In this document: positions 28,035-63,093 of the stretch, piece by piece | How the letters are laid out: each line of letters starts with the position of its first letter | Position numbering within the stretch: position 1 is the stretch's first letter | DNA from: an uncultured Chthonomonas sp. | Lineage (GTDB): Bacteria; Armatimonadota; Chthonomonadetes; Chthonomonadales; Chthonomonadaceae | Direction: 5' to 3' | Assembly: GCA_903859705.1 (NCBI GenBank) | Contig: CAIONQ010000125.1 | Coordinates: forward strand, 1 to 64,000 | Length of the DNA stretch: 64,000 nt | Made by a program: the position numbers and the translations under genes | The notes under the pieces: generated by a model | What the model was told of the DNA's origin: nothing | The model's input: the letters and a program-made list of their open reading frames with translations, nothing else | Database searches by the model: none

Positions 28035-30230
28035 TCAAAACAGATCCAGCACTCCCTGCCCGGCGGCCTCACGTTGCAGCTCTGCGGGCGCAGGAAAGAG
28101 ACTCGAGAAGCCTGGCCCCACCCCCGCCTCTAACCTGCATGCGAATCTGTACAATTTATCCAGGTAAAGGCGCGTATCCGGTTTAAAATCCACGGTTTCG
28201 CCTGTTTCAGATACTACTCCAAGTGTTCCATCGGAGCGGCTGTATACATATACATGCTCACCTATAGATATCCCCTGTGCAGCATCGGCCAGTTTGCGGC
28301 GCTGGCTGCTGGAAAATGTTTTTGATGTTACACGCTCTCGCCGGGTCAGGTCTCTCACGTTTACATTTCCTGCCGTTAACGCTGCCGCAATTTCCCGATA
28401 CAAATTCGCAGCTGAATCTGGGTGCCCCTCAAGCAGAAAGGCAACGGCCGATTCAAGAAATCGCCTGCCGAACATTTCATCTGATCGAGAGCGGAGCGAT
28501 GCTCCCTTTAGAAGGAGCTTACCCTCATAGGTTTCCAGCACATAATTCTTGGTTTTAATAGAAAGCATTCGCCGGTATCGGCCATCGAAAGCAAGGCGCA
28601 CTCCTGTTGGCAGGATTTCGCCAACCTGTTGCACATAAGCGCGCTCATCCGCTTCGCCCTCAACCCCTACCGGCGGCACAAAGTAAACACCATCGGTGTC
28701 TACCTCTATCACCTGGCTGCCATCCTGTGTTAGGCGGCCAGCAATGGCCAATACGGTATCGCGCCCTAATGCGGTCACTCGCCCTGCAGCGCTGCTATCG
28801 TTCCACGGAAATGGGCCGGCCAGGTATCCATAAAATGAGTTAATAAGCACCTTAAATGAGTTTTGCAAGCCATCCAGATACTGAGCTCTGGCCGGGTCTG
28901 GTTCACTGGCAGCCTGTTTCTTGGCTTGCACACGCCGCTCAGTCAATCCGTTGAGGGCAGGCAAAAACACTCCCAGAGTATCGCGTTCTGGGGCAATACC
29001 ATGTGCAAGCATGAGGCTGGGATACAGGCTCTCCACATCTGCCTTTACAACGCGCTCCATCACCCCGGTTTTGCGAACTTCTGTGTAGGCACCGGCGAAG
29101 GGCCGCCCCTGCTCTTTGATTGGGATGGAGTGCCCGGCATGCATATAAGCGCGGATAAGCATGGCATTGATCTTTTCGCCGCTGCCTGTTACCGCAGTAT
29201 TTTCGTAACTATCGGGCATCATCTGCGTTTGATAGAACTCAACTGGCGTTATCAAATCGGCCAGCAGCCGCGTTTCAATGGCATCGTGGCGCGCATACTC
29301 TCTCACACGCTCCGGGTCGGATCTATAGATGGAGGATATCTCTCTGCCTGGGAGCTCAATTCTATCTTCGGCTGCAAATCCGAACTGGCGTGCGCAGGCC
29401 TTTAACCCATAGCTGGTTAGCGATCCTTTAGCCCAATCGAACCGCTGAACTATCAAAAATGTATCCAGCACATGCCTGCCGTAGATGTGCACCGGGGTAA
29501 AGGGGCGAACAGCTCCTCCTATGGCGTAGCTGCGCTCTCGGCCCTTTACAGGATCGCTGCCATCACGCCCCAGGCTAAGCGGGATACCATTGCGCCGGGC
29601 ACGTTCCATCAAAAAGGGCAGGTCGAAGCCGAATACATTATGCCCTTCCAGCACATCCGGGTCGCAATCGCGAACAAGAGCACTGAATCGTTCGATAATT
29701 TCGACTTCTGTTCCCTCAATCAGTTGGAGCATCCCACGTGTATCGGATACCGCAACCATGAATACGGCACCATCCTCTGTAGTTGGATCCAGCCCGTTGG
29801 TTTCAATATCAAACTGCATGCGGTACACATCGGCAAAGGCCATATGCTTAAACAGGGTTTGACCTTTGCGCATCAAAATTGCGCGTGCACCCTCATACCC
29901 CAGGCAGGCGGTACCGGCATCTCTCAGGCCAAACCGGGCGTCACGCGCATCCCGCCAGTTATCAAAGGTTACAAGATATTTAAGGCCATTCCCCAACAGG
30001 CGCGTTACTTCGGACCTTGGCGCCTTTACTGGCGGGGCGGAGGTTAAGAGCCAGGGCTGAAACGGCACTTGTTCAGCCCGAACCACATGGCCTTCACGAA
30101 TATAAGCAACTGCGCCGTTTTGTGGGCCGGGTTCAATGGCAACAATATTAGGTTCGGTTGAGAATCCATACAGTGCCTCCTCTTCCGAAATTACACCGGC
30201 TGTAGCCGGGCGGGAACTTTTGTCTGCCAT
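28035..30230 (-). CDS. Family B DNA polymerase with 3'-5' exonuclease
   Basis: The 731-residue product is a complete family B polymerase. The proofreading motifs are Exo I FDIET (Asp141, Glu143), Exo [12 protein letters not shown] (Asp203) and Exo III YARHD (Asp316). The polymerase motifs are A, DVESLYPS (Asp398), [10 protein letters not shown] (460-468), and C, VDTDG (Asp511, Asp513). All catalytic acids are present, so it should be active. The final residues QGVLDLF resemble the beta-clamp-binding peptide at the end of E. coli Pol II, suggesting a clamp-assisted repair or translesion role. It is shorter than Pol II (783 residues). It is divergent from msrB. Confidence 0.92.
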
Positions 30231-56598: not shown

Positions 56599-57477
56599 TT
56601 AGCCCTTGAGCGCTTCCGCACCACCAACGATCTCCGAGATTTCCCGAGTAATACCCGCCTGGCGGGCCCGGTTAAGCTGCAGAGTAAGCGTGGTGATCAT
56701 CTTGCCAGCGTTGTCTGTTGCAGAGCTCATGGCCGTCATACGTGCACCATGCTCGCTCGCGTTCGATTCCAGGAAAGCCTGATAGACCTGCCCCTCCACG
56801 TATCTGGGAAGAAGGCTTTTCAGAAGCTCATCGGCGGAAGGAACGAAAATATAATCATCATTACCGGCACCAGCTGAAACCGTGCCGTCCTCCTGAGCTG
56901 GCTGCTGGATAGGCAGCAAAAGAACATCTGATGGTTTCTGTGTTATGGCTGTAAAGAACTGGGTGTACAGTAAATACAGCTCATCAATGGTGCCGCTTTC
57001 AAACGCATCTCGAACCACTTTGGTTATATCTCGAGATTCTGAGAAGCTTACACCCGTGTTGCCAAGTTCAAACTCGGCCACGACGTTGTATCCACGGCGC
57101 TTAAAGAACTGTACGCCTTTGCGGCCCGCACAGTAAAGGCGAACATGCTCCTTATCGTACTCCTTCAGCATTTCCAGCGTTTTTCGCAGGATTGCAGAGT
57201 TGTATGATCCGGCAAGGCCTCTATCTGCTGTGATGATCAAAAATCCGGTATGTTTCACCGGTCGAACAGCAAGCAGCGGGTGATCCAGTTCGCCACCAAC
57301 GCCTGCCGCAAGGCTGGTCATCATTTCACGCATGGTGAACGAGTACGGACGTGCGGCGGTAACTCGCTCCTGCGCCCGCTTCAGCCTGGCAGCAGCCACC
57401 ATTTTCATAGCCTTGGTGATCTGCTGTATGTTCTTCGCAACGCGGATGCGCTGCCGCACCTGTCGAATCGTTGCCAT
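56599..57477 (-). CDS. atpG: F1-ATP synthase gamma subunit
   Basis: Gamma is the rotating central shaft of F1. The 292-residue product has the N-terminal helix (RQVRQRIRVAKNIQQITKAMKMVAA), the Rossmann-like middle (LIITADRGLAGSYNS), and the C-terminal helix (AMSSATDNAGKMITTLTLQLNRARQAGITREI) that enters the alpha3beta3 core. GAGAGGAA precedes the ATG. It is separated from atpA by the PspA-like/oxidoreductase gene and followed by dapF rather than atpD. Confidence 0.97.
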   Translation of the reverse strand: MATIRQVRQRIRVAKNIQQITKAMKMVAAARLKRAQERVTAARPYSFTMREMMTSLAAGVGGELDHPLLAVRPVKHTGFLIITADRGLAGSYNSAILRKTLEMLKEYDKEHVRLYCAGRKGVQFFKRRGYNVVAEFELGNTGVSFSESRDITKVVRDAFESGTIDELYLLYTQFFTAITQKPSDVLLLPIQQPAQEDGTVSAGAGNDDYIFVPSADELLKSLLPRYVEGQVYQAFLESNASEHGARMTAMSSATDNAGKMITTLTLQLNRARQAGITREISEIVGGAEALKG

Positions 57478-57583: not shown

Positions 57584-59551
57584 TTACTTGTTGCGTACTG
57601 CGGAGAGAAGCGCATCAACAAGGGCGTTATCTGCCGAAACAGGATCGTTCGGATAGCGATCGGCGATTTCATTGGCGAATGCCTTGAACTCGTTGAGATG
57701 AACCGGTTTTTTGCCGCGCATCTCGGAGAGGTAGGAAGCGCCTACAATTGCGGAGCAATCTGCGCCGAATTCGGCAGTCATAAGAGACTGCTGCCCGATG
57801 CGGATGCACTCCACCATGTTCTGAATTTCGCCGTAGAAAGAAGACGGCCAGTGCTGCCAGTTGGAGCCACTAACGCGCAGCTTGCGAGATACGTTACCGT
57901 AAGAATCGGTAACTACTGCAAAGCGCTTGCCATCCTCATTTATCATATCGATGCGGCCTGTGGAACCGATGTAGCACGTATCCGCCGAATCCTTCTCGCT
58001 CCAGGAGCCTTCAACATGAGCGGTGCTCCACTCGTTGTTCTCACTATTCTCAAAGCGGATCAGGATATGGGCATCGTCGTCTACGGTTACCTTTTGATAA
58101 CGGCCTTCAATAATTCGGTTTGGCATGCGAATGCTCATACCGAACGGCTGTGCTGCCTTTACGAAGGTTGGTGTTTTCTCGAGGCCAGTTATGAACCAGG
58201 CTGCGCCGATGGCGTGAATACCGTTATCCAGCAATGCGCCGCCACCACCAAAATCGCTGTTCCAGAAGCGCGGATTGCCCTCTGGGCCACCGTGAGACTG
58301 GTTGAGGAACATGGCAATCAGTTCGCCGATCTGCCCTGCATCCACCAGTTTCTTAACAGTGTAGTAATCCGGATCAAACAGCCAGTTCTCGTTGTGCTGA
58401 TAGAACTGACCGGTGCGCTTTACCGCTTCGATAACGCGCTGTGATTCCAGCCAGCTGCGAGAGATCGGCTTTTCGCACATTACGTGGAAACCGGCCTCCA
58501 GGCCCTGGATTGAAAGCGGCGCATGCAGCACCGGCTGCGTACACACATCCAGAAGCTCCGGACGGTCCTCTTTCATCTCAATGACCTGCTGAATATCCTC
58601 AAAAATGCGGATATTCTCGAAATCGGATTCGAGGCGAGCTACCTCGTCATGGTCGCCCTTTTCACGAGCGGCGGCAACCTTAACTTCAATAAGTTGTCGG
58701 TAGCGCTTGTGAACCAGATCCTGTGCTGTCTTATCCGGGTCTACAAACGCAACAAGCTGCAGCTGTGGCAACTCTACATGAGCCGGCAGGTGTGCTCCGC
58801 GGAAAATTCCGCCCGTACCGATGGCAGCAACCTTGACTCGCCGTTTCGGGTCCATTCGAGAATCCTCTTTTCCTGATATATACGCAGGTGCGGCTATGCT
58901 GGCCGACTGCGCGGTAACATGCTGTGTGCTCTCTGAACCCGGGCGCGTTCCGGCGCGCTTCTCAAGGTTCGCGAGCATCTGCTCAACACTTCTCTCTGTT
59001 TCTTCTGCCTGTGCCGCCATCACCGCGGCTTGAGGAGTAGCCGCTTCGGCCTGTGAAACCAGAGATTGAATTTTTGCGGTGGCACGATCCCACATCTCAT
59101 CGGCTGCGGAGCCGGTTGACGTGAGAGCCGCCAGCGTCTTTTCTTGCAGGGCTGCAAGCCGTGCGGATGCGGTGGCTTCCGCGGTTTTTACGGCGAGCGC
59201 AGCGTTTGTCGCTTGCGCATCCAACAGGGCTATCTGCACCTGTAAACGCTCAGCTTCGGCTCGCCGGGCTGCTGCGGCACTCTCGATATCTACAGCAAGA
59301 TCTGCACGCTGTATGGATCGAGCGAGCCGCGCCTTTTCTTCATAATCAGCGGCCTGCTTTATGAGAAGCTCGGCCTCCGCCATGAGGTTATTGCGTTGTG
59401 TGAGAATGGCAACGGCGCCCTCACGCTGCTCTGCCAGGGACTCTCGTATCTGGCGGATACCTTCGGAAAGTACTTTCCGTGGGTCTGCGTTCGGATCGCC
59501 GGCTGCCATTTCTGTACTCACTGTATCCGGATAGCCCTGTGCGGTTAGCAC
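57584..59551 (-). CDS. PspA/IM30-like coiled coil in frame with a Gfo/Idh/MocA oxidoreductase
   Basis: One open frame of up to 655 codons joins two unrelated parts. Residues ~25-205 (DPRKVLSEGIRQIRESLAEQ, KARLARSIQRADLAVDIES) follow the PspA/IM30 pattern but lack its first amphipathic helix. Residues 233-655 are a complete oxidoreductase: MDPKRRVKVAAIGTGGIFRG, CEKPISRSWLESQ, FGGGGALLDNGIHAIGAAW. At the junction an AGAGGA box lies seven bases before the ATG at 58855, so a separate 423-residue oxidoreductase may also be made. Upstream starts are weak (GTG 59551, GTG 59521, ATG 59509). The gene lies 12 bases after atpA and before atpG. PspA proteins guard membrane integrity and proton-motive force, which fits the setting; the link is inferred. 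Confidence 0.8.
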   Translation of the reverse strand: MLTAQGYPDTVSTEMAAGDPNADPRKVLSEGIRQIRESLAEQREGAVAILTQRNNLMAEAELLIKQAADYEEKARLARSIQRADLAVDIESAAAARRAEAERLQVQIALLDAQATNAALAVKTAEATASARLAALQEKTLAALTSTGSAADEMWDRATAKIQSLVSQAEAATPQAAVMAAQAEETERSVEQMLANLEKRAGTRPGSESTQHVTAQSASIAAPAYISGKEDSRMDPKRRVKVAAIGTGGIFRGAHLPAHVELPQLQLVAFVDPDKTAQDLVHKRYRQLIEVKVAAAREKGDHDEVARLESDFENIRIFEDIQQVIEMKEDRPELLDVCTQPVLHAPLSIQGLEAGFHVMCEKPISRSWLESQRVIEAVKRTGQFYQHNENWLFDPDYYTVKKLVDAGQIGELIAMFLNQSHGGPEGNPRFWNSDFGGGGALLDNGIHAIGAAWFITGLEKTPTFVKAAQPFGMSIRMPNRIIEGRYQKVTVDDDAHILIRFENSENNEWSTAHVEGSWSEKDSADTCYIGSTGRIDMINEDGKRFAVVTDSYGNVSRKLRVSGSNWQHWPSSFYGEIQNMVECIRIGQQSLMTAEFGADCSAIVGASYLSEMRGKKPVHLNEFKAFANEIADRYPNDPVSADNALVDALLSAVRNK

Positions 59552-59563
59552 AGGGCGGCGGCA

Positions 59564-61261
59564 TTACGCTTTGAACTGAGCTTTGTAAGCAGTGATCGCC
59601 TGAATGAGGGCGGCCTCTGTGTCTTTATCCAGGTTCTTGGTTTTGGCCAGCTTCTCCATAACATCTGGATAGTTCTCTGCCATGAACGGATGGAAGCCGA
59701 ATTCAAACTTCTGGATGCTGAGAACGGGAATATCATCCAGGTAGCCGTTGTTACCGGCATAGATGATGGTAACCATCTGCTCAACTGCCATTGGTTTGAA
59801 CTGTGGCTGTTTCAGGATTTCGATAAGGCGGGAACCGCGCTCCAACTGATCACGGGTTGCTTTATCAAGATCGGATGCAAACTGTGAGAAGGCCGCAACT
59901 TCGCGATACTGCGCGAGGTCGAGCTTCATTCGGCCTGCAACCTTGGCATCCTTCATTGCATTTACCTGAGCAGATCGGCCTACGCGGGAAACGGAGATAC
60001 CAACGTTAATGGCAGGCCGTACACCAGAGTAGAACAGGTCGGGCTCAAGGAAGATCTGTCCATCGGTAATCGAAATAACGTTTGTCGGGATATATGCAGA
60101 AACGTCCGACGCCTGAGTTTCGATGATTGGCAGTGCTGTAAGGCTTCCACCCGTACCCGGGAGCTTTCGGATCTCAAGATCGTCTGCACCATCAAGTTCG
60201 GTAATTGCCTTTTTCGCATGATCGCGGCCTTCGCCGCCATGGTATTCAACACCATCCACGCCGGTGGTTGCACCGCCAGGAGCGCTCTTGCTTACAATAA
60301 TGTAATCTTCGCGCATTTTGGCAGCACGCTCCAGCAGTCGGCTGTGGATGTAAAAAACGTCTCCAGGATACGCTTCGCGGCCCGGCGGGCGGCGCAGAAG
60401 CAGAGATACCTGGCGGTAGGCTACTGCGTGCTTGGAAAGATCATCGTAGATGATGAGTGCGTGCTTGCCCTGATCGCGGAAGTACTCACCGATGGAGCAA
60501 CCGGTGTACGGCGCGATGTACTGCAGCGCGGCCGGATCCGAAGCGTTGGCGGCAACAATTACCGTGTATTCCAGCGCGCCCGCTGCCTCAAGGGCGATGC
60601 GAACGTTGTTTACGGTGGTTGCCTTCTGGCCAATACCAACATAAATACAGATGACGTCGCCGCCCTTCTGATTAATGATGGTATCCAGCGCGATAGCAGT
60701 TTTACCCAGACCACGGTCGCCGATAATAAGTTCTCGCTGACCTCGGCCAATGGGAACAAGGGCGTCTACAGCCTTCAATCCGGTCTGTAGTGGCTCTTTA
60801 ACTGGCTGGCGGTCTACAACACCGGGTGCACGCGTTTCAATGTACGCGGTTTCATCGGTGATGATTGGGCCCTTACCATCCAGCGGGTCGCCAACTGCGG
60901 AAACAACACGTCCCAGAAGGGCATCGCCAACCGGCACTTCAATAATGCGCCCGGTGAGCTTTACGGTTGTACCTTCGCTGATCTTCTCGTCCGGGCCAAG
61001 GATAACAGCACCAACGTTATCCTCTTCCAGGTTGAGTGCGATTGCCTTGATAACCGCGCCGTTGTGATCCGTGATAGGGTTGCCCTTTTCATCAAGGAAC
61101 TCAAGCAGTTCGGATACCATGGCATCTTTCAGGCCATAGACGCGGGCGATACCGTCGCCTACCTGCAGAACGGTTCCGACACCGACTTCGGTGACTTCCC
61201 GGTTGTAGGACTGTAACTCCCTCTCAAGTATGGAGGTTATCTCTTCCGGTCGAATTGCCAT
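59564..61261 (-). CDS. atpA: F1-ATP synthase alpha subunit
   Basis: The alpha subunit forms the non-catalytic nucleotide sites of F1. The 565-residue product is about 55 longer than usual. Core motifs are [19 protein letters not shown] (P-loop 181-188, where most members have GDRQTGKT), [33 protein letters not shown], and [20 protein letters not shown]. The extra length includes a Gly/charge-rich insertion at about residues 316-370, between SRLLERAAK and GGSLTALP, roughly 35 longer than in E. coli. A smaller one lies near 56-68. The arginine of [10 protein letters not shown] is kept. The insertion is likely surface exposed. It is followed by the PspA-like/oxidoreductase gene. Confidence 0.97.
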
Positions 61262-61374: not shown

Positions 61375-61923
61375 CTACGCTTCTGTAAGGAGCTGCTCTC
61401 TAAGCCGCTCCAGTGTTCCGCGCACGCTTCCGTCGAGAATGGTATCCTGCATGCGCACCACGATGCCGCCAATAATCGACGCATCAACACTTACCGTGAG
61501 ATCGACGTGACTTCCGGTTCGCTTCTGCAGGCTCTGAATAAGAGCAGCCTGTTCGGCCTCGGTGGGAGGCGTGGCGAAGGTGGCTTCAGCGCGAACGAGG
61601 TGCCTGGAGTTATCCGCCAGGTTCCGCAGCTCAAAGCGCACGGCAACAAGGATATCCTCGCGCCGCTTATCCACAAGCAGCAGTACGAACGCCAGGGTCA
61701 GGGCATCTATTGATCCTGAAAGAACCTTACCAACAAGCTCACGCTTGCGGCCGGCCGGGATTAGAGGCGTTTCCCATACCTGGCGAAACGATGCATTGGA
61801 TTCTAGCAGCTCCGCAATGGCGGTAATGTCTGCTTCAATGGTTGCCAGGTTGCCCTGCCGGGTAGCAGTGGCAAAGAGGGCGGTTGCGTAACGCTTTGCA
61901 GCGCGCAGATCCTTCTCAGCCAT
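61375..61923 (-). CDS. atpH: ATP synthase delta subunit
   Basis: Delta (OSCP) ties the peripheral stalk to the top of F1. The 182-residue product has the N-terminal helical domain ([17 protein letters not shown]), [31 protein letters not shown], and the C-terminal [36 protein letters not shown]. The ATG at 61923 lies inside the last codons of the b-subunit gene and has AGGAG upstream, so translation is coupled; the TTG six bases earlier is rejected. Confidence 0.95.
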
Positions 61924-62488
61924 TTGCAATCTCCTGGCCCGGCGTTACCGCAGCCCGCGCAATAAAGTCATTGATCAGGTGCCGCTGAACAGCATCTGTA
62001 TTGAGAGAAACCACCGTAGATTCTGCGGCATCCAGCGAAATCTGAACAATTTGCCTGCGCAGAAGTATGCGTTGGCGCGTTTGTTCGCGAGATAGCTCCT
62101 CTTCGGTGCGGCGCACAACAAGCTTAGCGGCACCTTGAGCATCTGCAATGATCTCATTGTGTGCAGCATCGGCTTCGCGCACGGCAGCGTCAATTCGCTC
62201 GCGGGATTCCGTTTCGATATTGCGCAACCGCTGGGCATACTCATCGTGCAGCCGCTGGGTTTCTGAAAGCGCCGTATCGATCTGGTTATGAACATCTTCT
62301 ACGCGGGTTTCGCGCTCGGTCAGCAACTGCTTTAGTGCTGGACGGCTAAAGACCGGCACGTTAACGAACCAAAGCAGGAGGGCAAACAGAATGAAGCCAA
62401 TCACCTGCGCCCCGAAGACGTTCGGATCCTCTATGGAAATGGGGCCAAATTGGAATTCGGCAAGTAGCACGATCGATTCTCCGATCAT
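61916..62488 (-). CDS. atpF: ATP synthase b-type subunit (second copy)
   Basis: The 190-residue protein has one N-terminal transmembrane helix (about 27-46, AQVIGFILFALLLWFVNVPV) and a long charged coiled coil (LTERETRVEDVHNQIDTALS and onward), the plan of peripheral-stalk b subunits. It is distinct from the other b-type protein encoded just upstream. The stalk is therefore probably a b/b' heterodimer, as in photosynthetic and several environmental bacteria. It overlaps atpH. Confidence 0.9.
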   Translation of the reverse strand: MIGESIVLLAEFQFGPISIEDPNVFGAQVIGFILFALLLWFVNVPVFSRPALKQLLTERETRVEDVHNQIDTALSETQRLHDEYAQRLRNIETESRERIDAAVREADAAHNEIIADAQGAAKLVVRRTEEELSREQTRQRILLRRQIVQISLDAAESTVVSLNTDAVQRHLINDFIARAAVTPGQEIANG

Positions 62489-62583: not shown

Positions 62584-63093
62584 CTACGCGTTCGCTGGCT
62601 CCAGGGAAATTCTATCTTCTACAGCGATGCGCAGTTGAACTGTATCTACAGCGGTACCCAGCGCCTTGCTGGCCGCGTCGACAGCGAGCCCAACCATGTT
62701 TCCGCGCAACGACTGCAACGCATCCGATGTTTCGCGCTCCAGGCTGGCAATGCCGCTCTGAAGCGTGGATTCTGATTGCGCGCGTGCCTCGGCCAGGATG
62801 CGCTCTCGCTCAGCCTGTGCCTCTTTGATGGCATTCTGAATATGTGTACGTGCCTCGGCCTCTACCTGGGTTAAGCGTGCCAGATAATCGGTTCGAAGCT
62901 GCTCCATCTCATGCTGCAGCCTATCGCGCTGAGCGTATGCATCTGCAATTTCCTTATCTCGCGCCTTGAGGTGCGCAAGCATGGGCTTCCAGAAGAATGC
63001 GTTCATCACAAGCAGCAGTACGATGAAGAGACCCAATTGGGTGACCATCACTACTGGGTCAAATGCCAACGTCTTGGCGATGGAAGTTAGCAT
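62584..63093 (-). CDS. atpF: ATP synthase b-type subunit (first copy)
   Basis: The 169-residue protein has one transmembrane helix (about 13-33, VTQLGLFIVLLLVMNAFFWKP) and a long amphipathic coiled coil (DKEIADAYAQRDRLQHEMEQ onward). The FFWKP junction is typical of b subunits. GAGGGA precedes the ATG. It lies between atpE and the second b-type gene. Confidence 0.92.
   Translation of the reverse strand: MLTSIAKTLAFDPVVMVTQLGLFIVLLLVMNAFFWKPMLAHLKARDKEIADAYAQRDRLQHEMEQLRTDYLARLTQVEAEARTHIQNAIKEAQAERERILAEARAQSESTLQSGIASLERETSDALQSLRGNMVGLAVDAASKALGTAVDTVQLRIAVEDRISLEPANA

Follow-up and report, generated by a model that had tools for sequence, protein, structure and literature searches.

Does a single reading frame that joins a PspA-like helical region to a Gfo/Idh/MocA oxidoreductase inside an ATP synthase operon encode one protein or two, and does it have a bearing on the ATP synthase? 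Such a frame lies on the minus strand of the window, by which we mean the whole 64-kb stretch of DNA that was analysed, and runs without interruption from 57584 to 59551 between atpA and atpG (Table 1). A preliminary description of the locus had proposed that the gene is an in-frame fusion of a PspA/IM30 relative, lacking the membrane-binding first helix, with a full enzyme; that a ribosome-binding site and ATG at the junction could yield the free oxidoreductase; and that the gene could tie the state of the membrane, or redox state, to ATP synthase output. Comparison with related genomes bore out the fusion, its place between atpA and atpG and the absence of the first helix, confirmed the PspA kinship for the family as a whole and upheld the internal start at the level of sequence. 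The link to the ATP synthase fared poorly.

Counted from a GTG at 59551 the frame would encode 655 amino acids. The proteins of relatives begin where the ATG at 59509 aligns, so we took this ATG as the true start and ruled out the GTG; the fusion probably begins there.

Table 1. Coordinates of the fusion gene, its parts and its neighbours in the window.
Feature	Coordinates	Strand	Length	Basis or remark
Full-length fusion gene	57584..59509	-	641 aa	Open frame and start aligned with relatives
PspA/ESCRT-III-like domain, residues 1-184	58958..59509	-		hhalign, PDB profile search, AlphaFold2, Foldseek
Linker	58856..58957	-	34 codons in the window copy	Predicted disordered, pLDDT <50 at residues 185-217
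Internal Shine-Dalgarno-like sequence GGAAAAGAGG	58864..58873	-		8 bases upstream of ATG 58855
Internal in-frame ORF, Gfo/Idh/MocA oxidoreductase	57584..58855	-	423 aa	Pfam matches
atpA, upstream neighbour of the fusion	59564..61261	-		ORF
atpG, downstream neighbour of the fusion	56599..57477	-		ORF

The two halves of the frame

The window copy of the N-terminal domain matched the Pfam family PF04012 weakly, at 18.1 bits (E 0.002) against a curated cut-off of 33.9 bits. PspA_IM30 was nonetheless the best-matching Pfam family in 10 of 15 members of the domain family, and three relatives passed the cut-off (G006 at 40.4-40.6 bits, with E 3e-10 for 40.4; G005 at 38.8 bits; and G013, with its neighbours, at 34.7 bits). 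When the domain family was aligned by hhalign with the PspA of the Chthonomonadaceae, the match extended over 182 columns with P 99.1 and E 8e-19. Members scored up to 54 bits against the PspA profile compared with 10 or less for heptad-shuffled controls, and a profile search of the PDB with the domain gave nine hits, all nine to Vipp1 or PspA. AlphaFold2 predicted a helical hairpin at residues 10-130 of the window fusion (helices 10-65 and 69-130) followed by a helix at 136-185. Using the AlphaFold2 model of the G006 domain as a Foldseek query, we found Vipp1, PspA or ESCRT-III structures at all of ranks 1-21, with TM-scores that were modest because the long helices curve differently. The heptad shuffles, the ATP-synthase stalk controls and the searches of the PDB and of folds ruled out generic coiled-coil likeness in place of PspA kinship. 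Judged from these comparisons, assignment to PspA is weak if the window copy is taken by itself and firm for the family.

The domain resembles PspA and Vipp1 (IM30) of the bacterial ESCRT-III superfamily (PF04012) in its helical hairpin, in a later helix motif found in most members and in sequence kinship. It differs from them in having no alpha0, the N-terminal amphipathic membrane anchor, in an alpha3/alpha4 region that is shorter by about 12 residues, and in the attached enzyme. The loss of alpha0 is seen in the alignments, where the match to the top PDB chains starts at Vipp1/PspA residue 21-22, directly past this helix, and the hhalign match starts at column 19 of the Chthonomonadaceae PspA. 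PspA polymers need helices alpha4-alpha5 for their contacts, and the alpha5 motif aids their assembly. An alpha5-like motif is present in most members and missing in G001, G007 and G009, so not every member may polymerise. All 17 Chthonomonadaceae genomes encode a complete, alpha0-bearing PspA in a separate gene, and the domain profile matches just two genes per genome, namely PspA and the fusion (split in G001 and lacking the enzyme in G009). The presence of this alpha0-bearing PspA in every genome, taken with the PspA kinship of a domain without alpha0, indicates that the N-terminal domain is a PspA paralogue minus the membrane anchor.

The C-terminal half of the window protein matched PF01408 (E 2e-16), PF22725 (E 1.4e-14) and PF02894 (E 2.4e-9). 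These three families, which cover the Rossmann fold and the C-terminal domain, scored above cut-off in 21 of 21 sequences. A Glu-Lys-Pro motif (E346 K347 P348), D428 and H432, which are the catalytic positions of the Gfo/Idh/MocA family, were invariant in 21 sequences. The nearest solved relatives, at about 20% identity, are dehydrogenases of sugars or glycosides, among them DgpA and aldose-aldose oxidoreductase. With these and levoglucosan dehydrogenase the enzyme shares the Rossmann fold, the Glu-Lys-Pro motif and the C-terminal sheet; it differs from solved members of the family in an extra helical pair at residues 260-298 and, in Chthonomonadaceae, in the N-terminal PspA arm. The helical pair lies between early Rossmann strands and is found in stand-alone relatives as well.

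Among 291 Armatimonadota genomes, the close relatives beyond the Chthonomonadaceae are stand-alone enzymes of about 410-430 aa. Some of these adjoin genes for L-rhamnose isomerase, for nucleotidyltransferases or for an esterase-like hydrolase, and because of such neighbours the gene context points to sugar metabolism. The enzyme part is with certainty a complete Gfo/Idh protein with its motifs intact, and apparently an active NAD-type sugar dehydrogenase.

Conservation and origin of the fusion

We compared 17 genomes of the Chthonomonadaceae (Armatimonadota), counting the window species (G000). The fused frame is present in 15 of them (the window and 14 others), representing 10 genera, which rules out a frameshift or assembly error as the source of the fusion. 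The linker varies from 34 to 263 codons among these fusions. Its 2,042 codons in the 15 genomes contain no in-frame stop. The two alternative frames have 108 and 80 stops, and base-shuffled linkers a mean of 77 (minimum 46); the linker frame is open beyond chance. In two genera, for comparisons where dS was estimable, omega was about 0.04-0.05 in the enzyme, 0.06-0.09 in the PspA part and 0.19-0.6 in the linker, indicating that purifying selection extends over the PspA part and the linker.

These results bear on the idea that a stop codon was lost neutrally, leaving a functionless fused frame of which only the internal product matters. One relative, G001, does manage without the fusion. However, neither the selection on the PspA part and linker nor the absence of stops from the linkers is expected of such a frame, and three lineages gave up the internal start, not the fusion. 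We consider neutral stop loss very improbable.

A stop between the two parts in related genomes would, according to the preliminary description, have counted against the fusion. One such split was found: G001 encodes the domain as a separate gene of 182 aa with the enzyme in a different frame. The 14 other relatives are fused. A tree built from AtpA, AtpG and enzyme sequences pairs G001 with the fused G000 as its sister and places it within a group of fused relatives, so the split is derived and was ruled out as the ancestral state. The second exception, G009, groups with G007 in this tree and has retained the domain and lost the enzyme. In G009 the PspA-like domain stands by itself between atpA and atpG (L066, 1030-1575, minus strand) and may serve a separate function.

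In the out-group genome G055 the enzyme stands alone beside atpG and has its own Shine-Dalgarno sequence, so its place beside atpG is older than the fusion. The order of events indicated by these sequences is that the enzyme was already next to atpG before a PspA domain was joined to it in the ancestor of the Chthonomonadaceae. No second PspA fusion was found elsewhere in 201 Armatimonadota genomes; an 827-aa frame around PspA in G119 proved to be open by chance, upstream of a PspA of the usual kind.

PspA proteins almost never bear other domains, and here a fusion has been kept across at least 10 genera beside a normal PspA, after loss of the anchor. In a 2024 survey more than 98% of PspA homologues had no fusion of any kind; fusions to NlpC/P60 and PspAA were named, and its text never uses the word "oxidoreductase" (PMC11237479). 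We found no fusion of PspA to an oxidoreductase or other metabolic enzyme in the literature searched. The component parts are of known kinds, and their combination and the two-start design appear to be new.

The start codon at the junction

An in-frame ATG preceded by a Shine-Dalgarno sequence is found at the junction in 12 of the 15 fusions, including that of the window; in most of these the Shine-Dalgarno sequence is good, and that of G013 is weak. The ATG is absent in three lineages (G006, G007 and G008). Against codon-shuffled linkers, the predicted Shine-Dalgarno pairing had p values of 0.02-0.22 per linker, and some ATGs inside the enzyme scored equally. Since the linkers are A/G-rich and other in-frame ATGs do as well, pairing energy is weak evidence on its own; we rejected it as sole proof of internal initiation and turned to synonymous constraint instead.

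Synonymous divergence was scanned along the gene in eight-codon windows in two genera (g7 and g2). Among G010-G012 the window at the internal start had no synonymous change compared with a gene mean of 0.82 and was the lowest of 626 windows. The corresponding value among G002-G005 was 0.17 compared with a mean of 0.69, ranking fourth to fifth lowest of 629, and with six-codon windows the internal start became the lowest. Divergence climbed again at the internal ATG, where the constraint stops. This is the pattern expected of a ribosome-binding site that is used, and it supports selected internal initiation. From this pattern, the gene probably gives both the full-length fused form and the free enzyme.

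An unlikely alternative is that the product always has two domains and that the internal Shine-Dalgarno sequence and ATG are an unused relic of a formerly separate gene. The three lineages that retain the fusion without the internal ATG fit this idea, and linker codons rich in Lys, Gly and Glu yield Shine-Dalgarno-like sequences by chance at the p values given above. A relic would decay, however, and in both genera synonymous divergence at the internal start is the lowest of the gene or close to it, with the constraint ending at the ATG. If the two-start reading is correct, the gene would be an unusually clear case of an internal start under selection within a continuous bacterial frame. Its arrangement resembles that of in-frame internal-start genes such as those of phage endolysins, with one frame, two starts, a common stop and a C-terminal short form (PMC9430671). 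It differs in being a chromosomal metabolic gene with a long arm of scaffold type whose short form is the enzyme, and in that its two products are predicted from sequence.

Possible function and the ATP synthase neighbourhood

We lean, if not strongly, towards a reading in which two proteins come from the one frame: an alpha0-less PspA arm that would scaffold the sugar dehydrogenase, and free dehydrogenase subunits that would fix how many arms an oligomer has. The full-length product would consist of the alpha0-less PspA paralogue, the disordered linker and the dehydrogenase, and the internal Shine-Dalgarno sequence and ATG would yield the dehydrogenase by itself. Gfo/Idh enzymes commonly form oligomers, either dimers or tetramers. 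For this reason we infer that free subunits mix with fused ones and dilute the arms in each oligomer, as single phage endolysin genes with in-frame internal starts have been proven to give mixed oligomers (PMC9430671). The PspA arm may self-assemble or join PspA polymers in the cytoplasm and thereby gather the enzyme. We picture the arm as cytoplasmic and polymerising because PspA without alpha0 forms the same rods with no tubulation of membranes (PMC12358876), and Vipp1 without alpha0 forms rods and does not engulf membrane (PMC11919686). Lineages without the internal ATG (G006, G007 and G008) would then make the fusion only, and G001 would make two separate proteins.

A tentative and rather doubtful extension of this two-protein reading is that an ESCRT-III-type polymer serves as a cytoplasmic enzyme scaffold, with fused and free dehydrogenase held on alpha0-less PspA filaments or co-assembled with PspA and sugar oxidation tied to the membrane-stress state. 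If true, this would be a first instance in which a fold of ESCRT-III type has been put to use in organising an enzyme.

The domain could instead be a soluble partner or decoy that caps or titrates PspA polymers, with this activity set by the enzyme in response to a sugar or redox signal. An alpha0-less paralogue does coexist with full PspA in the same genomes, and the occurrence of the domain alone in G009 and as a separate gene in G001 suggests that it can act without the enzyme. Most lineages keep the fusion, however, which a free decoy would make unnecessary, and we regard this role as distinctly improbable.

The reading in which the gene links the ATP synthase to the state of the membrane or to redox state is the least probable. 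In its favour, 12 enzyme-carrying genomes of the family have the gene between atpA and atpG with atpA directly upstream (as it is of the solo domain in G009), and in G016 one gene separates it from atpA. The preliminary description had suggested atpA-atpG synteny as a check, and adjacency to atpA is kept in those 12 genomes and departs from the pattern in G014, G015 and G016. Operons are dispersed in the type species of the lineage (PMC4959169), so the preserved neighbourhood may reflect useful co-expression of the gene with the atp genes. Against coupling, G014 has retained the fusion away from the atp operon, and the fusion of G015 adjoins atpG but not atpA. The stand-alone enzyme of the out-group G055 already lies beside atpG, amid unrelated genes, before the fusion arose, and in other orders the enzyme is found near genes for L-rhamnose isomerase or sugar nucleotides. 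The co-location can also be explained as hitch-hiking. The proposed link to ATP synthase output or regulation is weak.

In several related families atpG is no longer next to atpA and lies amid unrelated genes (L068-L076 and L080). The interval between atpA and the stand-alone enzyme in G055 (L097, 1895-6448, minus strand) contains genes for an ADP-ribosylglycohydrolase, a macro-domain protein and an M29 aminopeptidase. The gap between atpA and atpG seems to gather genes.

A tRNA scan across the 64-kb window found none. An ORF at 28035-30230 (minus strand) resembles a B-family DNA polymerase, judged by eye only. The window also contains two different b-type stalk genes of the ATP synthase in tandem, b and b'-like (61916-62488 and 62584-63093, minus strand). 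Paired b and b'-like stalk genes also occur in phototrophs and some other bacteria. AtpA of this order, as seen in the window and in G006, G013, G016 and G055, has an insertion of about 50 residues just ahead of a 13-residue stretch; the insertion is absent in other Armatimonadota, where AtpA has 507-509 aa.
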